Assembly (NCBI GenBank): GCA_024398615.1
Contig: JAKSIU010000007.1
Coordinates: forward strand, 22,449-86,448
DNA: 64,000 bases
Reading direction: 5' to 3'
Source of the DNA: Bacteroidaceae bacterium
GTDB lineage: Bacteria > Bacteroidota > Bacteroidia > Bacteroidales > Bacteroidaceae
The translations under genes were made by a program, and so were the position numbers. The stretch's first letter is position 1; each line of letters begins with the position of its first letter. This document shows positions 23,195-31,364 of the stretch, piece after piece. A model generated the notes under the pieces. That model did no database searches. It was not told the origin of the DNA and worked only from the letters and a program-made list of their open reading frames with translations.

Positions 23195-24331
23195 TCACAG
23201 TCCAGCCACTTGCTCCAAAGTCAGACCCGTGCACTTGGCAATGACATCGGCAGGGATGCCTTCAGCCTTCAAGTTCCGCGCTGTCTTCAGTTTAGTCTGC
23301 TCAACGCCCTCTGCCATGCCCTGCTCCAAAGCCTGTGATTGGGCAGCATCAACAGCAACAAGCATCTCGCGTTCCAGCTCTTCACGTTGCCCTTCAAGGG
23401 CTTCCTTGATGGCGCACTGCTTCTCAGTTTCCTTGCGAATGCTGAGGTCTTCAAGGGCTTCCTTGATGGCGTACTGCTTCTCAGTTTCCTTGCGAATGCT
23501 GAGGTCTTCAAGGGCTTCCTTGATGGCGTACTGTTTCTCGGCTTCCTTGCGGATGCTGTAATCATCAAGGGCCTCCTTGATGGCGTAATCCCTTTCGGCC
23601 TTTATCTGTATTTCGTCCCGTACCATCTTGTCGTATATTGATAGTTTGTCTTCCTCTATGTTCCTGCGGTCCGAAGCCTCGAACAGCAAATCGAAGTAAG
23701 GAGCAAGCCCTGCCGGCTTTGTCTCCACTTCGCCCATGGTGCTCACATAGTACGCCCAACGCTCGATAAAGCTTGATTCCGATGTGGGCTCCTTTGCCTC
23801 GGGCAGTTGCAAAAATATGAAATTCAATTTATTTGACAAAACTTTCTGGCTGTCGGCCATCGTGACATGCGCATAGCGCAGCAGACTGTGCCTGAATGAC
23901 TTATCCTCGTCCCTGACAAGCAGGTGGCCGCCAAGTATGCACACCACATACAGCGTGCGTACGTTCCCATAGTCCTCGCCCTTCTTGAGCAGGTGCCTCA
24001 GCGGGTCACCGGAATAGACCATCAGACGGTCCCTGAAATACTCGTACGGTTCTTTCTGCATCTCCACTATGAAACGGTTGCCGGCCTTGTCGGTGCATTG
24101 GATGTCATAGTTGTTGCGGTGGTATTCCTCAGTTGGCGGCTGAACCTCGGGATTGAGAAAGGTGATGGACACGATTTCGCGTTCGGGGATGAGTTCGTTC
24201 AGCAGACGCATCATCAGTTCGGGGTTGTCAGGGTTGGCCATGACAATCTTAAATCCGAAGTCATGTGTCAGGTCGATGAATGGGGGCACACTTACCTGCG
24301 GCTTTTCCTGGTCATTCAGATTCATTTTCAT
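23195..24331 (-). CDS. Rpn family PD-(D/E)XK nuclease / transposase-like protein
   Basis: 378 aa. The N-terminal 230 residues match the PDDEXK_2/Rpn family: DLTHDFGFKIVM at the start, NYDIQCTD with the first acidic residue, and FIVEMQKEP with the ExxK-like second half of the nuclease core, then YSGDPLRH. Rpn proteins are Holliday-junction or DNA nucleases that promote recombination and are often called transposases, though they lack transposon ends. Residues about 249-320 are a charged coiled coil of 19-residue repeats (YAIKEALEDLSIRKETEKQ). The C-terminus has a short helix-rich tail ending in IAKCTGLTLEQVAGL. A second in-frame ATG lies two codons in. Confidence 0.85.
   Translation of the reverse strand: MKMNLNDQEKPQVSVPPFIDLTHDFGFKIVMANPDNPELMMRLLNELIPEREIVSITFLNPEVQPPTEEYHRNNYDIQCTDKAGNRFIVEMQKEPYEYFRDRLMVYSGDPLRHLLKKGEDYGNVRTLYVVCILGGHLLVRDEDKSFRHSLLRYAHVTMADSQKVLSNKLNFIFLQLPEAKEPTSESSFIERWAYYVSTMGEVETKPAGLAPYFDLLFEASDRRNIEEDKLSIYDKMVRDEIQIKAERDYAIKEALDDYSIRKEAEKQYAIKEALEDLSIRKETEKQYAIKEALEDLSIRKETEKQCAIKEALEGQREELEREMLVAVDAAQSQALEQGMAEGVEQTKLKTARNLKAEGIPADVIAKCTGLTLEQVAGL
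23396..23587 (-). repeat. 57-bp in-frame tandem repeats inside the Rpn gene
   Basis: Three full 57-bp units (23531-23587, 23474-23530, 23417-23473) and a partial fourth encode 19-residue coiled-coil repeats. Units two and three give identical peptides, and the DNA is nearly identical, which implies recent expansion. A multiple of three keeps the frame. Confidence 0.85.
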
Positions 24332-24367
24332 TGGTTGATTTTTTCATTGGTTTATTAAAAAATGGAC

Positions 24368-24418
24368 AAAAAAAGAGCCAATGGACCGTCTGCCTTGTGG
24401 CAAGCGGTTCTATGGCTC
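24368..24418 (-). terminator. Terminator after the thioesterase gene
   Basis: Minus strand: GAGCCA pairs with TGGCTC, ACCG with CGGT, and an inner TGCC with GGCA, interrupted by small internal loops. Seven Ts follow. It is 70 nt past the thioesterase stop, in the 154-nt gap before the Rpn gene. Confidence 0.7.
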
Positions 24419-24485
24419 CCTTAATGTTCAATTACAAATGTAATAAAAGCAAGCGGAAAGTCAGTTATCAGAATCAATAAATCTG

Positions 24486-24899
24486 CTACATCAGCGAATC
24501 AAACGCCATGGTATCGGCCTTCCTATAGCCCAGTGACGTGCCCGATGCAATGAGGGTGCCATCGGCATTGGTGATTTCCACACGGCAGAAAGGTATCTTG
24601 CGGTGGTCACAAGTCACGAAAGCCTTGGCTGTCAGACGGTCGCCCACGCGGGCGGGGTGATGGAAAGTCATGGCATTCTCAAGACCCAGAGTGACGTTGC
24701 CGCAGGCGTTCATGGCGGCTGCTATGGCCAGGTCCGCGAAGGTGAAAAGCGCCCCACCCTGGCAGATGCCGGCACCGTTCAGATGGTGCTCGTCGACCGT
24801 CATCTCGGCAATGGAAAAATCCGGGGTAACCTGTGTCAGAAACATGCCGTTGTATGCTGCAAAACGGTCGTTGATATTGAGATAATCCTTCAGTGTCAT
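24486..24899 (-). CDS. PaaI-type hotdog thioesterase
   Basis: 137 aa, the usual length for a single hotdog domain. Family features are HHLNGAGICQGGALFTFAD, covering the helix and active-site loop, and then TFHHPARVGDRL. The typical HGG of PaaI is replaced by QGG here. These enzymes hydrolyse aryl- or acyl-CoA thioesters in the cytoplasm. The substrate is not predictable. It is transcribed alone, away from the DUF1648-like gene, from a -7 box at 24928-24935. Confidence 0.85.
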   Translation of the reverse strand: MTLKDYLNINDRFAAYNGMFLTQVTPDFSIAEMTVDEHHLNGAGICQGGALFTFADLAIAAAMNACGNVTLGLENAMTFHHPARVGDRLTAKAFVTCDHRKIPFCRVEITNADGTLIASGTSLGYRKADTMAFDSLM

Positions 24900-24923
24900 G
24901 TCTTTTACCTGTGAATAAGTCTG

Positions 24924-24955
24924 GTTGCAAAGATATGGAAATTCCGATATCTTTG
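24924..24955 (+). promoter_or_regulatory. Promoter of the translesion-repair operon, predicting a leaderless mRNA
   Basis: GTTG (24924-24927), a 20-nt gap, then TATCTTTG (24948-24955). The -7 box ends only 4 nt before the ATG at 24960, so the transcript should start at or beside the start codon. A minus-strand TATCTTTG (24928-24935) for the thioesterase gene overlaps it, so the two promoters share DNA. Confidence 0.65.
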
Positions 24956-24959
24956 CGAT

Positions 24960-25394
24960 ATGAAAAGAAACACCGTAATATCAATCATCGCGTTAGCGGT
25001 AATTGCAGTGAACACGCTGTGGATTCTTTGCGTCTTGGGCGGGCTGCCGGCCGACCTTCCCCAGCACTATGATCTGAAGGGCAACTACACCTCGACCATG
25101 TCAAAGAACGCACTGCTGTATTTCCCATTGGTCAGTTGTGCCCTGTTCCTGGCGGTACACTTCCTGAAGGCTCTGCTTTTCAGGTTCCGCAGCAAGGCAA
25201 ACGATGCAAAGGGGATACGCAGCACATGCTTTTCAATTGCCCAGCTTTGCCTGGCACTGATAATACTCTGTTCAAGCGGAGTCACCCTAACATTCGGCAA
25301 ATGCCACCTGTTCTTCTTTGCCGAGCCGGTGCTGCTCGCTATCCTGATCATTGCAGTTATCACCAGCGAAATCAAGGCCAGAAAGGCCATCTGA
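24960..25394 (+). CDS. DUF1648-like membrane protein
   Basis: 144 aa with four hydrophobic segments: residues 5-26, 50-70, 90-108 and 116-137. The first is followed by GLPADLPQHYDLKGN, matching the DUF1648 pattern in which a helix is followed by a Pro-rich LPxHxxxxG turn. DUF1648 is found in SdpI-like and other small membrane proteins; function unknown. It is the first gene of the run leading to the Y-family polymerase (7-nt gap) and probably has a leaderless transcript. Confidence 0.7.
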   Translation: MKRNTVISIIALAVIAVNTLWILCVLGGLPADLPQHYDLKGNYTSTMSKNALLYFPLVSCALFLAVHFLKALLFRFRSKANDAKGIRSTCFSIAQLCLALIILCSSGVTLTFGKCHLFFFAEPVLLAILIIAVITSEIKARKAI

Positions 25395-25401
25395 CAGACA
25401 A

Positions 25402-26904
25402 GTGCCTGAACCGGAGAGGACATACATTGCCATTGACCTGAAGTCGTTCTTCGCATCGGTCGAGTGTGTTGAGCGCGGACTGGACCCGCTCACCACAAAT
25501 CTCGTCGTGGCCGATGTCAGCCGCACAGAGAAGACCATCTGCCTGGCGGTATCGCCGTCGCTCAAGGCTTACGGCATTGGCGGCCGTGCGCGTCTGTTCG
25601 AGGTGACGGAACGTCTGCGTCAGGTGAACAGCGACCGTCTGTACAAGACACCGCAGCACCGGTTTACCGGCAAATCCACATCGGACACCGACCTTAAAGC
25701 CCACCCTGACTGGGAGGTCGATTTCATTGCGGCGCCTCCACGCATGTCGTACTACCTGAAATACAGCAACCGCATATACGAGACCTATCTGAAATACGTT
25801 TCGGCCGATGACATACACGTGTATTCCATTGACGAGGTCTTCATTGACGCGACCGGCTATCTGGCAAGCTACAGGATGACAGCACGCGAGCTGGCCATGA
25901 CCATGATCCGCGATGTGCTGCATCAGACCGGCATAACGGCAACCGCCGGCATAGGAACCAACCTGTATCTCTGCAAGGTGGCCATGGACATTGTTGCCAA
26001 GCACATACCGGCCGACAAGGACGGAGTGCGCATAGCCCAGCTGGACGAGATGAGCTACCGCCGCCAGCTGTGGAACCACCGTCCACTGACCAGTTTCTGG
26101 CGGGTGGGCAAAGGCACGGCCCAGAAGCTGGCCTTCTACGGCATTGACACCATGGGCAAGCTGGCCCGCTGCTCCATTGAGCATGAGGAGATGCTGTACA
26201 ACCTGTTCGGAGTGAATGCCGAACTGCTCATTGACCACGCCTGGGGCTGGGAGCCATGCACCATAAGCCAGATCAAGGCATACCGCCCCGAAACGAATTC
26301 GCTCAGCAGCGGACAGGTGCTTACCAGCCCGTACACTTTCAATAAGGCCCGTGTTGTGGTCCATGAAATGGCCGATGCCGCAGCCCTGCGCCTGGTCAGC
26401 AAGCATCTTGTAACTGACCAGCTGACACTTACCATAGGCTATGACGTTGAAAGTCTGACCAACCCCGACATAAGCTATGACGGCAAGATAAAGACCGATT
26501 ACTACGGCCGCAAGGTCCCGGCCCACGCACACGGCACCACGAAGCTGGAACGCCATACGTCATCGGCTACCGTCATTGCCGATGCCATTGTGGCGCTGTT
26601 CGACCGGATAGTGAACCCGGGCCTGCTTATCCGCCGCATGAACATCAGCACCGACAATGTGATGGACGAAAGCCGTGCTGCCGCACGCCAGCCCGAGCAG
26701 CTTGACCTATTCACTGACTACGAGGCGCTGGAACAACGGCGAAATGCCGAACAGAAGGCGCTGGAACGTGAACACCGCATGCAGAAGACCCTGCTCGACA
26801 TAAAGAACAAATACGGCAAGAACGCCATTCTGAAAGGGCTGAACTTCGAGGAAGGTGCGACCGCCATTGAACGCAACAGACAGATAGGAGGACACAAGGC
26901 ATGA
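25402..26904 (+). CDS. Y-family DNA polymerase (UvrX/UmuC-like)
   Basis: 500 aa from GTG 25402 (VPEPERTYIAIDLK). An in-frame ATG at 25351 would overlap the previous gene by 44 nt. Palm motifs are visible: IAIDLKSFFASVE with the first catalytic Asp, and YSIDEVFIDAT with the second Asp and Glu. The fingers (SPSLKAYGIGGRARLFEV), the thumb with helix-hairpin-helix (SFWRVGKGTAQKLAFYGI) and a little-finger domain follow. The insertion between the first two motifs and the long C-terminus resemble UvrX-type polymerases of Firmicutes rather than E. coli DinB. It performs lesion bypass. The tail has a QxxLF-like clamp motif (EQLDLFTDY) that could bind the beta clamp. Confidence 0.9.
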   Translation: MPEPERTYIAIDLKSFFASVECVERGLDPLTTNLVVADVSRTEKTICLAVSPSLKAYGIGGRARLFEVTERLRQVNSDRLYKTPQHRFTGKSTSDTDLKAHPDWEVDFIAAPPRMSYYLKYSNRIYETYLKYVSADDIHVYSIDEVFIDATGYLASYRMTARELAMTMIRDVLHQTGITATAGIGTNLYLCKVAMDIVAKHIPADKDGVRIAQLDEMSYRRQLWNHRPLTSFWRVGKGTAQKLAFYGIDTMGKLARCSIEHEEMLYNLFGVNAELLIDHAWGWEPCTISQIKAYRPETNSLSSGQVLTSPYTFNKARVVVHEMADAAALRLVSKHLVTDQLTLTIGYDVESLTNPDISYDGKIKTDYYGRKVPAHAHGTTKLERHTSSATVIADAIVALFDRIVNPGLLIRRMNISTDNVMDESRAAARQPEQLDLFTDYEALEQRRNAEQKALEREHRMQKTLLDIKNKYGKNAILKGLNFEEGATAIERNRQIGGHKA

Positions 26905-27446
26905 CAGACAATTACGATGACATAATAGACCTTCCGCATCATGTATCGGCCAATCACCCCCAGATGTCAATGCATGACCGTGCCGCACAGTTCGGTGCGT
27001 TCCAGGCACTGACCGGACGTGACACATCGACAATATCAGACCCCACCATGACAGAAAAACCGCATTACAACGTAGTGGCAGCCGTCATTTTCAAGGACGG
27101 CAAGTTCCTTTGCACGCAGAAAGGACAGACCAGATACCCCTACACCACCCTGAAATGGGAGTTTCCCGGCGGCAAGATAGAGGCCGGCGAAACGCCGCAG
27201 CAGGCCCTCCAGCGCGAGTTGCTTGAAGAAATGGACTACCGCATCAAGGTTGACCGACACCTGATAACCGTCAATCACGAATACCCGGATTTCAGCATCA
27301 CCCTGGCCACCTACCTGTGCACCCCCATCAGCCCCGGCTTCAAGCTCAAGGAGCACAACGACTTCCGTTGGCTGCCCAAGGAAGATCTGAGCACCCTTGA
27401 CTGGGCCGCTGCCGACTCCGACATCATCAACCTGCTCACCCAATAA
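26901..27446 (+). CDS. YolD-like motif fused to MutT/Nudix hydrolase
   Basis: 181 aa. Residues 6-40 (DDIIDLPHHVSANHPQMSMH, then DRAAQFGAFQALTG) are the conserved core of YolD-like proteins, which elsewhere are separate small genes next to UvrX-type polymerases. From residue 50 a MutT-type Nudix domain follows; its Nudix box begins GGKIEAGETPQQALQRELLE and ends EEM. It would hydrolyse oxidised nucleotides such as 8-oxo-dGTP, related to the job of the neighbouring polymerase. The start overlaps the polymerase stop by 4 nt (ATGA). An internal ATG at 27048 could yield MutT alone. The usual C-terminal part of YolD proteins is missing. Confidence 0.85.
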   Translation: MTDNYDDIIDLPHHVSANHPQMSMHDRAAQFGAFQALTGRDTSTISDPTMTEKPHYNVVAAVIFKDGKFLCTQKGQTRYPYTTLKWEFPGGKIEAGETPQQALQRELLEEMDYRIKVDRHLITVNHEYPDFSITLATYLCTPISPGFKLKEHNDFRWLPKEDLSTLDWAAADSDIINLLTQ

Positions 27447-27460
27447 CCCGAATAACCGAC

Positions 27461-28126
27461 ATGACCGCGACACTGCCGTTCATACAGGATTCCTTTGACC
27501 GCTTCAATGCGTTGTGCTTTGAAGGGGTCCTTCCACCCATACCAATTGTTCTGACCAAGGCCAGGACATTCCTGGGCAAAGTGGAATACAGGGGCGTCCG
27601 CGGCCTTTTCGGACTGGTGACCGCCAACAAGGACTTCCGCATGAAGATAAGCACCAGTTTCGACCTTCCCCGTGAAGAACTGGAGGACGTGGTGCTGCAC
27701 GAAATGATTCACTACTACATTGCCTGGAAGGGCATCAAGGACAGTTCGGTACACGGAAAGGCGTTCAGGAACATAATGCAGCAACTCAACGCCACATACG
27801 GAAGGCACATCAGCATAAGGCACAAGACCGTGGAGGGCCAGCTGCCGGCAAAGGACACCGGGACCAGCCGGCATTACGTGTGCGTGACCACCTTCCGCGA
27901 TGGAGTCCGATGCGTCACCGTTGCCGCCAGCACCAGGATACCGGAACTGCACCGGTTCTTCTCCCACTGTCCGGATATAGTCAAAACGCAGTGGTTCCGG
28001 TCCACCGACCCATTCTTTGACCGCTACCCGCATTCCAGAACGCCGAAAGTCTACAGGATTGCCCCCGATGACCTGGAAACGCATCTGCGCAATGCCGTAG
28101 CATTCGACCGCCCCATCCTCCCCTGA
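27461..28126 (+). CDS. SprT/Spartan-like zinc metalloprotease
   Basis: 221 aa. The SprT domain spans residues 5-110 with LHEMIHYYIAW (HExxH), and a third zinc ligand in SSVHGKAFRN about 14 residues later. The N-terminus (FDRFNALCFEGVLPPIPIVL) is the typical SprT start. Eukaryotic Spartan cleaves DNA-protein crosslinks during replication; bacterial SprT proteins are little studied. A further 110 residues of unknown fold, with one Cys pair, follow the protease. It lies 14 nt after the YolD-MutT gene and ends the operon. Confidence 0.85.
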   Translation: MTATLPFIQDSFDRFNALCFEGVLPPIPIVLTKARTFLGKVEYRGVRGLFGLVTANKDFRMKISTSFDLPREELEDVVLHEMIHYYIAWKGIKDSSVHGKAFRNIMQQLNATYGRHISIRHKTVEGQLPAKDTGTSRHYVCVTTFRDGVRCVTVAASTRIPELHRFFSHCPDIVKTQWFRSTDPFFDRYPHSRTPKVYRIAPDDLETHLRNAVAFDRPILP

Positions 28127-28131
28127 CAATA

Positions 28132-28176
28132 CGTTCCCTCGCGGTGAGCAATCCCGCGGGATTCACGCACGGAACG
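28132..28176. repeat. Nested palindrome after the SprT-like gene
   Basis: CGTTCC/GGAACG encloses GTG/CAC and a perfect 14-bp palindrome AATCCCGCGGGATT (28150-28163). It sits 6 nt past the SprT-like stop and could form a plus-strand stem that stops or stabilises the transcript. The plus strand is followed by As rather than Ts, so it is not a standard terminator. Confidence 0.5.
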
Positions 28177-28213
28177 AAAAAAAAGGGAAGAAATCATGCG
28201 ACTTCTTCCCTTT
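28177..28213 (-). terminator. Terminator of tRNA-Val
   Basis: Minus strand: a perfect 11-bp stem (AAAGGGAAGAA with its complement) and an 11-nt-scale loop, then eight Ts. It starts one base past the tRNA 3' end. Confidence 0.9.
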
Positions 28214-28214
28214 G

Positions 28215-28289
28215 TGGGCGTTGACGGATTCGAACCGCCGACCCTCTGCTTGTAAGGCAGATGCTCTGAACCAGCTGAGCTAAACGCCC
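28215..28289 (-). tRNA. tRNA-Val (anticodon TAC)
   Basis: The minus strand folds as a cloverleaf. The acceptor stem is GGGCGTT paired with AACGCCC. The D-arm contains AGCTCAGCTGGTT. The anticodon arm TCTGC-CTTACAA-GCAGA gives anticodon TAC. The T-arm carries GGTTCGAATCC, followed by discriminator A. The CCA end is not encoded. It is flanked by its own promoter and terminator. Confidence 0.96.
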
Positions 28290-28309
28290 TTGCTTCCTTA
28301 AAAGCGGTG

Positions 28310-28340
28310 CAAAGATAGGCAGTTTTTATTTACCGCCAAA
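28310..28340 (-). promoter_or_regulatory. Promoter of tRNA-Val
   Basis: Minus-strand -33 TTTG (28337-28340), exactly 19 nt, then -7 TATCTTTG (28310-28317). The start is predicted about 14 nt before the tRNA. This is the best-formed promoter in the window and a good reference for the -33/-7 spacing used elsewhere. Confidence 0.85.
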
Positions 28341-28356
28341 ACATTTCTGCACTTTT

Positions 28357-31364
<3,008 letters not shown>

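Follow-up and report, generated by a model that had tools for sequence, protein, structure and literature searches.

Do lesion bypass, nucleotide sanitation and a Spartan-like protease act together in one bacterial operon? The question is raised by four closely spaced genes in a 64,000-nucleotide stretch of a Bacteroidaceae genome (assembly GCA_024398615.1, contig JAKSIU010000007.1, positions 22,449 to 86,448; the whole stretch is called the window below), which an earlier note had read as a combined damage-tolerance module. The pairing of lesion bypass with nucleotide sanitation is supported, because a polymerase and its YolD-type arm recur as a pair and purifying selection maintains a fusion of that arm to a NUDIX domain in three genomes. 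The part assigned to the SprT-like protease is not supported. Judged from the sequence, the locus is probably a UvrX-like translesion (Pol V-like) mutasome operon, in which the small subunit consists of a YolD arm with a NUDIX domain in place of the YolD body.

The open reading frames confirmed four plus-strand genes and their coordinates (Table 1), with a 7-nt gap between the DUF1648-like and polymerase genes, a 4-nt overlap between the polymerase and fusion genes and a 14-nt gap between the fusion and SprT-like genes. The identities proposed for the polymerase, NUDIX and SprT-like products were all supported by scores above the Pfam cut-offs, whilst DUF1648 fell below its own. Relatives were searched with single queries: P0004 for SprT, at an expect value (E) cut-off of 0.001, P0002 for the polymerase, at 1e-30, 1e-20 or 1e-60, and P0003 for the fusion. 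Divergent members are missed because the queries were single and the E cut-offs fixed. The genome sets comprised 37 genomes of the genus, 151 and 384 of the family and 324 of the order, and all counts are of matches by these queries. The window genome (G000) is a draft, 81.74% complete, and most of the compared genomes are also drafts; the other G numbers denote genomes of relatives and the L numbers loci.

The polymerase recurs with a YolD-type arm

The polymerase matched the Pfam families IMS at 84.8 bits and IMS_C at 45.9 bits, both above cut-off. IDLKSFFASVE and SIDE, which we take to be the catalytic motifs of the polymerase, are readable in its frame. Ahead of the C-terminal tail stands a motif resembling the N-terminus of RecA: a profile of 55 polymerase tails scored residues 1-60 of E. 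coli RecA at 15.2 bits (E 0.0027), compared with 6.8 bits for the best of 2000 shuffles. This agrees with the RecA N-terminal motif described for such polymerases in the available text of PMC6511836 and PMC12926913. The name UvrX-like is provisional, being taken from the arm, the RecA-like motif and PHROG 1268 ('DNA polymerase') rather than from a reference tree.

The polymerase was matched in 46/151 family genomes. When the fusion served as query, many family genomes matched the arm only, at the end of the polymerase or up to a few hundred bases past it. From the examined loci, including those of phages and plasmids and the window's own, 52 distinct arm proteins were parsed (tblastn). Three are fused to a NUDIX domain and 23 continue for at least 100 residues past the RAA motif with no NUDIX; the remaining 26 are short, cut or unparsed by motif. 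Polymerase plus YolD-type arm is a recurrent unit, a putative mutasome of a known kind. The arm proteins agree with the three kinds of small subunit (a complete YolD, the arm by itself, or the arm joined to an unrelated domain) distinguished in the accessible part of PMC12926913, and YolD is presented as the UmuD counterpart beside UvrX-like polymerases in that of PMC6511836.

Related polymerases were also found in 1731/72,556 plasmid records and 87/50,697 phage records. Two Bacillota records were examined among the 1731: in one the polymerase has a full YolD one gene downstream, and in the other an arm-only gene adjoins it. Of the 12 plasmid records listed, 9 (H48-H53, H55-H57) label their UvrX-like polymerase 'DNA methylase', which is probably a propagated misannotation.

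The predicted small subunit joins the arm to a NUDIX domain

The third gene had been described as a YolD-MutT fusion. An arm is indeed joined to a NUDIX domain, but the YolD body is missing and the MutT equivalog cut-off is not reached. YolD homology in the fusion protein (P0003) is confined to the N-terminal arm; the SH3-like body, PF08863, is absent and was not matched at E up to 1. One full-length relative scored 18.9 bits against PF08863 (E 0.0016), still short of the 27.5 cut-off. The NUDIX half scored 60.5 bits in Pfam (cut-off 21.1) and 152.7 bits against the PADLOC candidate family PDC-S07. Among solved structures, 3gwy (a putative CTP pyrophosphohydrolase) comes nearest and is matched over the whole domain (E 1.6e-40).

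Matches that start at query residue 1 and extend across the NUDIX domain were present in 3/384 family genomes among the matches listed: the window's own, G166 (90%) and G070 (77%). The count took only matches that begin at residue 1; about a dozen others start at residues 33-46, several of them with a stop codon. Between the window genome and G166, the ratio of nonsynonymous to synonymous substitution rates (dN/dS) was 0.084 for both the polymerase and the arm and 0.108 for the NUDIX half, and between the window genome and G070 it was 0.099 for the polymerase and 0.092 for the NUDIX half. The fused arm-NUDIX frame is under purifying selection in three genomes.

Several results weigh against a working polymerase-NUDIX mutasome. 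The fusion-bearing genomes number three and all belong to the window's genus. The arm dN/dS between G000 and G070 is higher, at 0.289, the arm values covering 50 codons. Scores for the NCBIfam equivalogs stay below cut-off both for MutT (72.3 against 97.9 bits) and for pyrimidine nucleoside triphosphate diphosphatase, presumably NudG (72.9 against 156 bits). The single-sequence structure model of the fusion is poor (mean predicted local distance difference test, pLDDT, 41.8), and the polymerase tail retrieved no RecA when used as a single sequence. By eye, the Nudix box (consensus GX5EX7REUXEEXGU in the accessible text of PMC11784022) keeps its fixed positions except the last Gly, which is Asp, the same as in 3gwy.

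The rival that survives best, though we consider it unlikely, is that two neighbouring genes were joined by neutral read-through, with the arm serving the polymerase and the hydrolase acting as a free enzyme. Many other genomes do encode a NUDIX of this family separately, at another place, and arm-only subunits are found in many relatives. Against this, three genomes retain the fused frame at 77-90% identity, with a dN/dS of about 0.1 in the NUDIX half, and no unfused NUDIX of the same family stood beside the polymerase in 80 polymerase loci (a redundant set, some of them short).

A viral-contig scan with the fusion query found no relative. Three of 26 fusion candidates from phage records were opened and rejected: L310 has an ordinary full-length YolD, L311 a NUDIX without the arm and L312 a NUDIX beside a helicase. 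In the literature searched (subscription papers and preprints excluded), YolD and Nudix were mentioned together only in papers that are off-topic by title.

Free-standing relatives of the NUDIX half adjoin a helicase akin to the PLD-DEAD-DUF3427 protein of L312 at L312, L080 and L090, and more weakly at L064 and L078. At L067 and L306 the neighbour resembles a Vsr-type endonuclease (by eye). Members of this NUDIX family seem to shift between defence loci and repair loci.

Promoter region and surroundings

Table 1. Predicted features of the locus and its surroundings, in window positions.
Feature	Position	Strand	Basis or remark
PD-(D/E)XK nuclease family transposase (PF12784)	23195-24331	-	about 0.6 kb upstream of the DUF1648-like gene
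Divergent promoter-like region	24928..24955	both	TATCTTTG on minus 24935-24928 and plus 24948-24955; GGAAATTCC in between
DUF1648-like small membrane protein	24960..25394	+	Pfam 26.6 bits, just under cut-off 28.7
UvrX-like Y-family DNA polymerase	25402..26904, GTG start	+	Pfam IMS, IMS_C; RecA-N-terminus-like motif, conserved C-terminal tail
YolD N-terminal arm (about residues 1-46) fused to MutT/NudG-like NUDIX hydrolase (about residues 55-180)	26901..27446	+	Pfam NUDIX; arm by tblastn
SprT-like zinc metalloprotease with HEMIH and, as candidate third ligand, H98	27461..28126	+	Pfam SprT-like
tRNA-Val (TAC)	28214..28289	-	convergent with the predicted operon; context, outside the unit
MutL-like gene (by eye)	29538-31364	-	behind TrpS

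A divergent pair of TANNTTTG sites lies immediately 5' of 24960; we take TANNTTTG to be the Bacteroidetes -7 consensus (TAnnTTTG). No further exact copy was found on the plus strand of 24851-28300. Scanning for sigma-70-type sites gave one on the plus strand, within the DUF1648-like gene, and such sites in the region did not exceed shuffles (2 found, 2.4 expected). A matching promoter stretch stands directly 5' of the polymerase in relatives, close in G166 and G165 and diverged in G070. In all three the polymerase begins shortly past the divergent promoter region, which adjoins a thioesterase gene, and of the four only the window has the DUF1648-like gene between the two. The start codon of that gene falls 4 nt past the -7-like element (24948-24960), and its mRNA may therefore be leaderless.

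Downstream, on the other strand, follow tRNA-Val, TrpS and MutL (the latter two by eye), and a terminator-like hairpin at 28182-28213 lies on tRNA-Val's own strand. The downstream side is not conserved, since a different gene follows the SprT remnant in G166. The upstream transposase gene contains a 57-bp in-frame tandem repeat at 23392-23587 (3.4 copies, 92% matches) encoding KEALEDLSIRKETEKQYAI-type repeats.

Because the downstream side differs and a transposase lies upstream, we kept as a rival the idea that a fragment of some mobile element or defence island came to rest beside tRNA-Val by chance and makes up the cluster. It would fit the related polymerases on plasmids and phages, the PDC-S07 match of the NUDIX half and the patchy distribution. 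We nevertheless find it improbable: apart from the transposase, no phage, integrase or conjugation gene was seen by eye in the translations of 23195-31364, the start of the thioesterase gene and the upstream promoter region are common to the window, G166, G165 and G070, and SprT matches amounted to one weak match in phages and one in the plasmid collection.

The SprT-like gene and its origin

The claim of a SprT-like HExxH protease stands as a prediction, the domain scoring 45.2 bits in Pfam (cut-off 25.6) with HExxH intact. Residues H80, E81, H84 and H98 are invariant in 34 aligned SprT homologues, and phmmer matched the protein to Spartan 6mdw (E 4.7e-6). Scores for the NCBIfam SprT equivalogs fell short (23.2 against 113 and 13.5 against 175 bits). 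Bacterial SprT has a C-terminal zinc ribbon; no CxxC cysteines were seen by eye in the window's protein. Its structure model (pLDDT 87.8, predicted template modelling score 0.56) gave no Foldseek match at E up to 0.001, the best being a zincin-like protein at a weak E of 0.14.

G166, with a polymerase 93% identical to the window's, keeps the gene order as far as a SprT remnant made up of residues 1-45 and about 183-212 in differing frames. This remnant is without the HExxH stretch, so that the catalytic core is gone; a second, intact SprT copy lies elsewhere in the genome. The G165 sequence (polymerase 95%) stops within the polymerase, before any SprT position, and G070 (polymerase 76%) gave no SprT match. 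Several SprT genes of the genus had first seemed to be broken; this reading was abandoned because the flagged stops fall at the natural C-terminal end (frames of 211-238 amino acids).

A tree of 123 SprT proteins was built from 122/130 loci plus the window, after removal of four duplicates, two fragments of the G166 remnant and two rows with terminal stops. The window copy pairs with L189 from Candidatus Cacconaster scatequi (63% identity, support 99/97), within a set of ten that are largely horse-gut Bacteroidales (99/86). By contrast, 20/21 genus copies belong to a set of 34 rows with 100/100 support, which also takes in 10 family and 4 named rows. Because it groups with other Bacteroidales lineages and apart from the genus's own copies, the window's SprT gene was probably acquired horizontally from another Bacteroidales lineage, the likeliest time being before the G000/G166 split. 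An old duplication with many losses could also have produced this tree. Given the tree placement, and a DUF1648-like gene between promoter and polymerase in the window but not in the three relatives, the two outer genes look like late, lineage-specific additions to an older polymerase transcription unit. SprT itself seems to be a passenger that arrived late and is readily lost, and its pairing with the polymerase an accretion within one small group.

Recurrence of the SprT-polymerase pairing

SprT was matched in 37/151 and 94/384 family genomes, 21/37 genus genomes and 7/324 order genomes. Its co-occurrence with the polymerase was as expected by chance: 9/37 genus genomes (8.51 expected, P 0.51), 12/151 family genomes (11.27 expected, P 0.46) and 1/324 order genomes, the window's own (0.13 expected, P 0.12). 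The test ignores kinship between genomes and scores G166 as SprT-positive through its intact second copy.

Gene context gave a similar picture. Neither polymerase nor NUDIX was found near the 29 other family SprT loci (0/29; about 1.5 kb on each side, several cut by contig ends). A UvrX-type polymerase or YolD arm was likewise found at 0/80 named SprT loci, the best 80 of 528 relatives, within up to 10 kb on each side and with many cut by contig ends; four of these coincide with family or genus loci. SprT neighbours at the 80 loci were diverse, and the biggest shared cluster covered 11 loci with mixed frames. On viral contigs, 15 polymerase loci had no SprT and 23 SprT loci had no polymerase in the examined DNA, two of the 23 showing no SprT match on recheck. 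The pairing thus largely fails to recur within Bacteroidales. Firmicutes were not searched systematically; SprT was absent from about 9.5 kb around the polymerase in the two Bacillota plasmid records mentioned above. No paper mentioning UvrX together with SprT was found in the literature searched, within the limits given earlier.

Four genomes, G170, G171, G176 and G159, have a genus-type SprT about 0.67, 2.1, 6.6 and 7.4 kb, respectively, from a polymerase 61-62% identical to the window's. None has the two in one tight co-directional operon, and their SprT proteins form one clade (support 100/90). In G170, SprT lies about 40 nt behind an acetyltransferase-like gene (by eye) and is divergent from the polymerase; in G171 it is also divergent, with another gene in between. 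G152 has the same polymerase and G170's intervening gene with no SprT match. Polymerase and SprT are on separate contigs in G024 and about 21 kb apart on one contig in G034. We read this closeness as one proximity in one clade plus chance, though it is not nothing. At L192, from horse faeces, SprT is convergent with a DinB-like polymerase (29% identical to the window's), and the other strand also carries a tRNA_SAD gene and MutT; with 80 loci inspected, our judgement, which is uncomputed, is that this is compatible with chance.

In the sister group formed by G170, G171, G176, G159 and G152 (L168-L171, L185), the stable neighbour of the polymerase-arm pair is a nitrilase-like gene (by eye). SprT nearby comes and goes there.

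The note's module, in which the polymerase bypasses lesions whilst SprT strips crosslinked proteins at the same forks, as eukaryotic Spartan does with translesion synthesis, is the least probable of the alternatives: tight co-directional packing, the intact HExxH with its invariant residues, the Spartan match, the divergent SprT genes near the polymerases of G170 and G171, and L192 with its MutT all speak for it, but no second intact case was found, the core is deleted in G166, G070 has no SprT match, none of the 29 family or 80 named loci has a UvrX-type polymerase in the flanking DNA examined, co-occurrence is at chance, the window's SprT stands apart from the genus's own copies, and the G170-type proximity is confined to one clade in a background where G152 gave no SprT match and G024 has the genes on separate contigs. 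A conserved SprT-polymerase module was rejected for want of a second intact case, for the lost core in G166 and for chance co-occurrence; the gene decayed in the nearest relative and was probably acquired separately. As a reservation about this conclusion, the SprT-bearing operon could be a working module in this one species. The case also carries a caution, namely that two repair genes lying close together in one genome do not make a functional module unless the arrangement recurs.

A possible mechanism

In the polymerase-NUDIX mutasome that we favour, the polymerase would bind RecA at stalled forks via its RecA-like motif, and the YolD arm would fit into the enzyme as in the published model of YqjX. 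The NUDIX domain tethered to the arm could then hydrolyse damaged or non-canonical (deoxy)nucleoside triphosphates ((d)NTPs) close to the low-fidelity active site. SprT, if on the same transcript, might degrade protein adducts on DNA and would be dispensable to the machine. We put forward only tentatively the fuller picture, in which the arm brings the NUDIX to the entrance of the active site, where it destroys damaged dNTPs ahead of their use by the polymerase, and a crosslink protease was added to the transcript in one species. Should this reading of the fusion be right, Pol V-like mutasomes would have in their small subunit a modular socket, its short arm plugging varied bodies, including an enzyme, onto the polymerase. 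The locus would then offer a direct route to testing whether error-prone polymerases are coupled to precursor sanitation.

Comparison with known systems

With SprT/Spartan metalloproteases, the window's fourth product shares the SprT-like Pfam domain with HExxH. It differs from them in having no CxxC, a distinct C-terminal part, scores under the NCBIfam cut-offs and no significant fold match.

The putative YqjW/UvrX-YqjX/YolD-RecA mutasome, as set out in the accessible text of PMC6511836 and PMC12926913, has in common with the window a UvrX-like polymerase, a YolD arm immediately downstream, a RecA N-terminus-like motif and a conserved C-terminal tail. The window differs in carrying a NUDIX domain instead of the SH3-like YolD body, and in two extra lineage-specific genes. 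In Cohnella abietis YhjD (PMC12926913, as far as its text was available), a case of the third small-subunit kind, YolD homology is likewise limited to an N-terminal arm fused to another domain; the main text of that paper, supplements aside, contains neither 'Nudix' nor 'MutT'.

The NUDIX half resembles MutT/NudG hydrolases, the match to 3gwy (E 1.6e-40) running across the whole domain. It is set apart from them by being joined to a predicted polymerase-docking arm within a predicted polymerase operon. The putative polymerase-YolD mutasome is the part already known, and the arm-NUDIX small subunit is probably the part that is new here.

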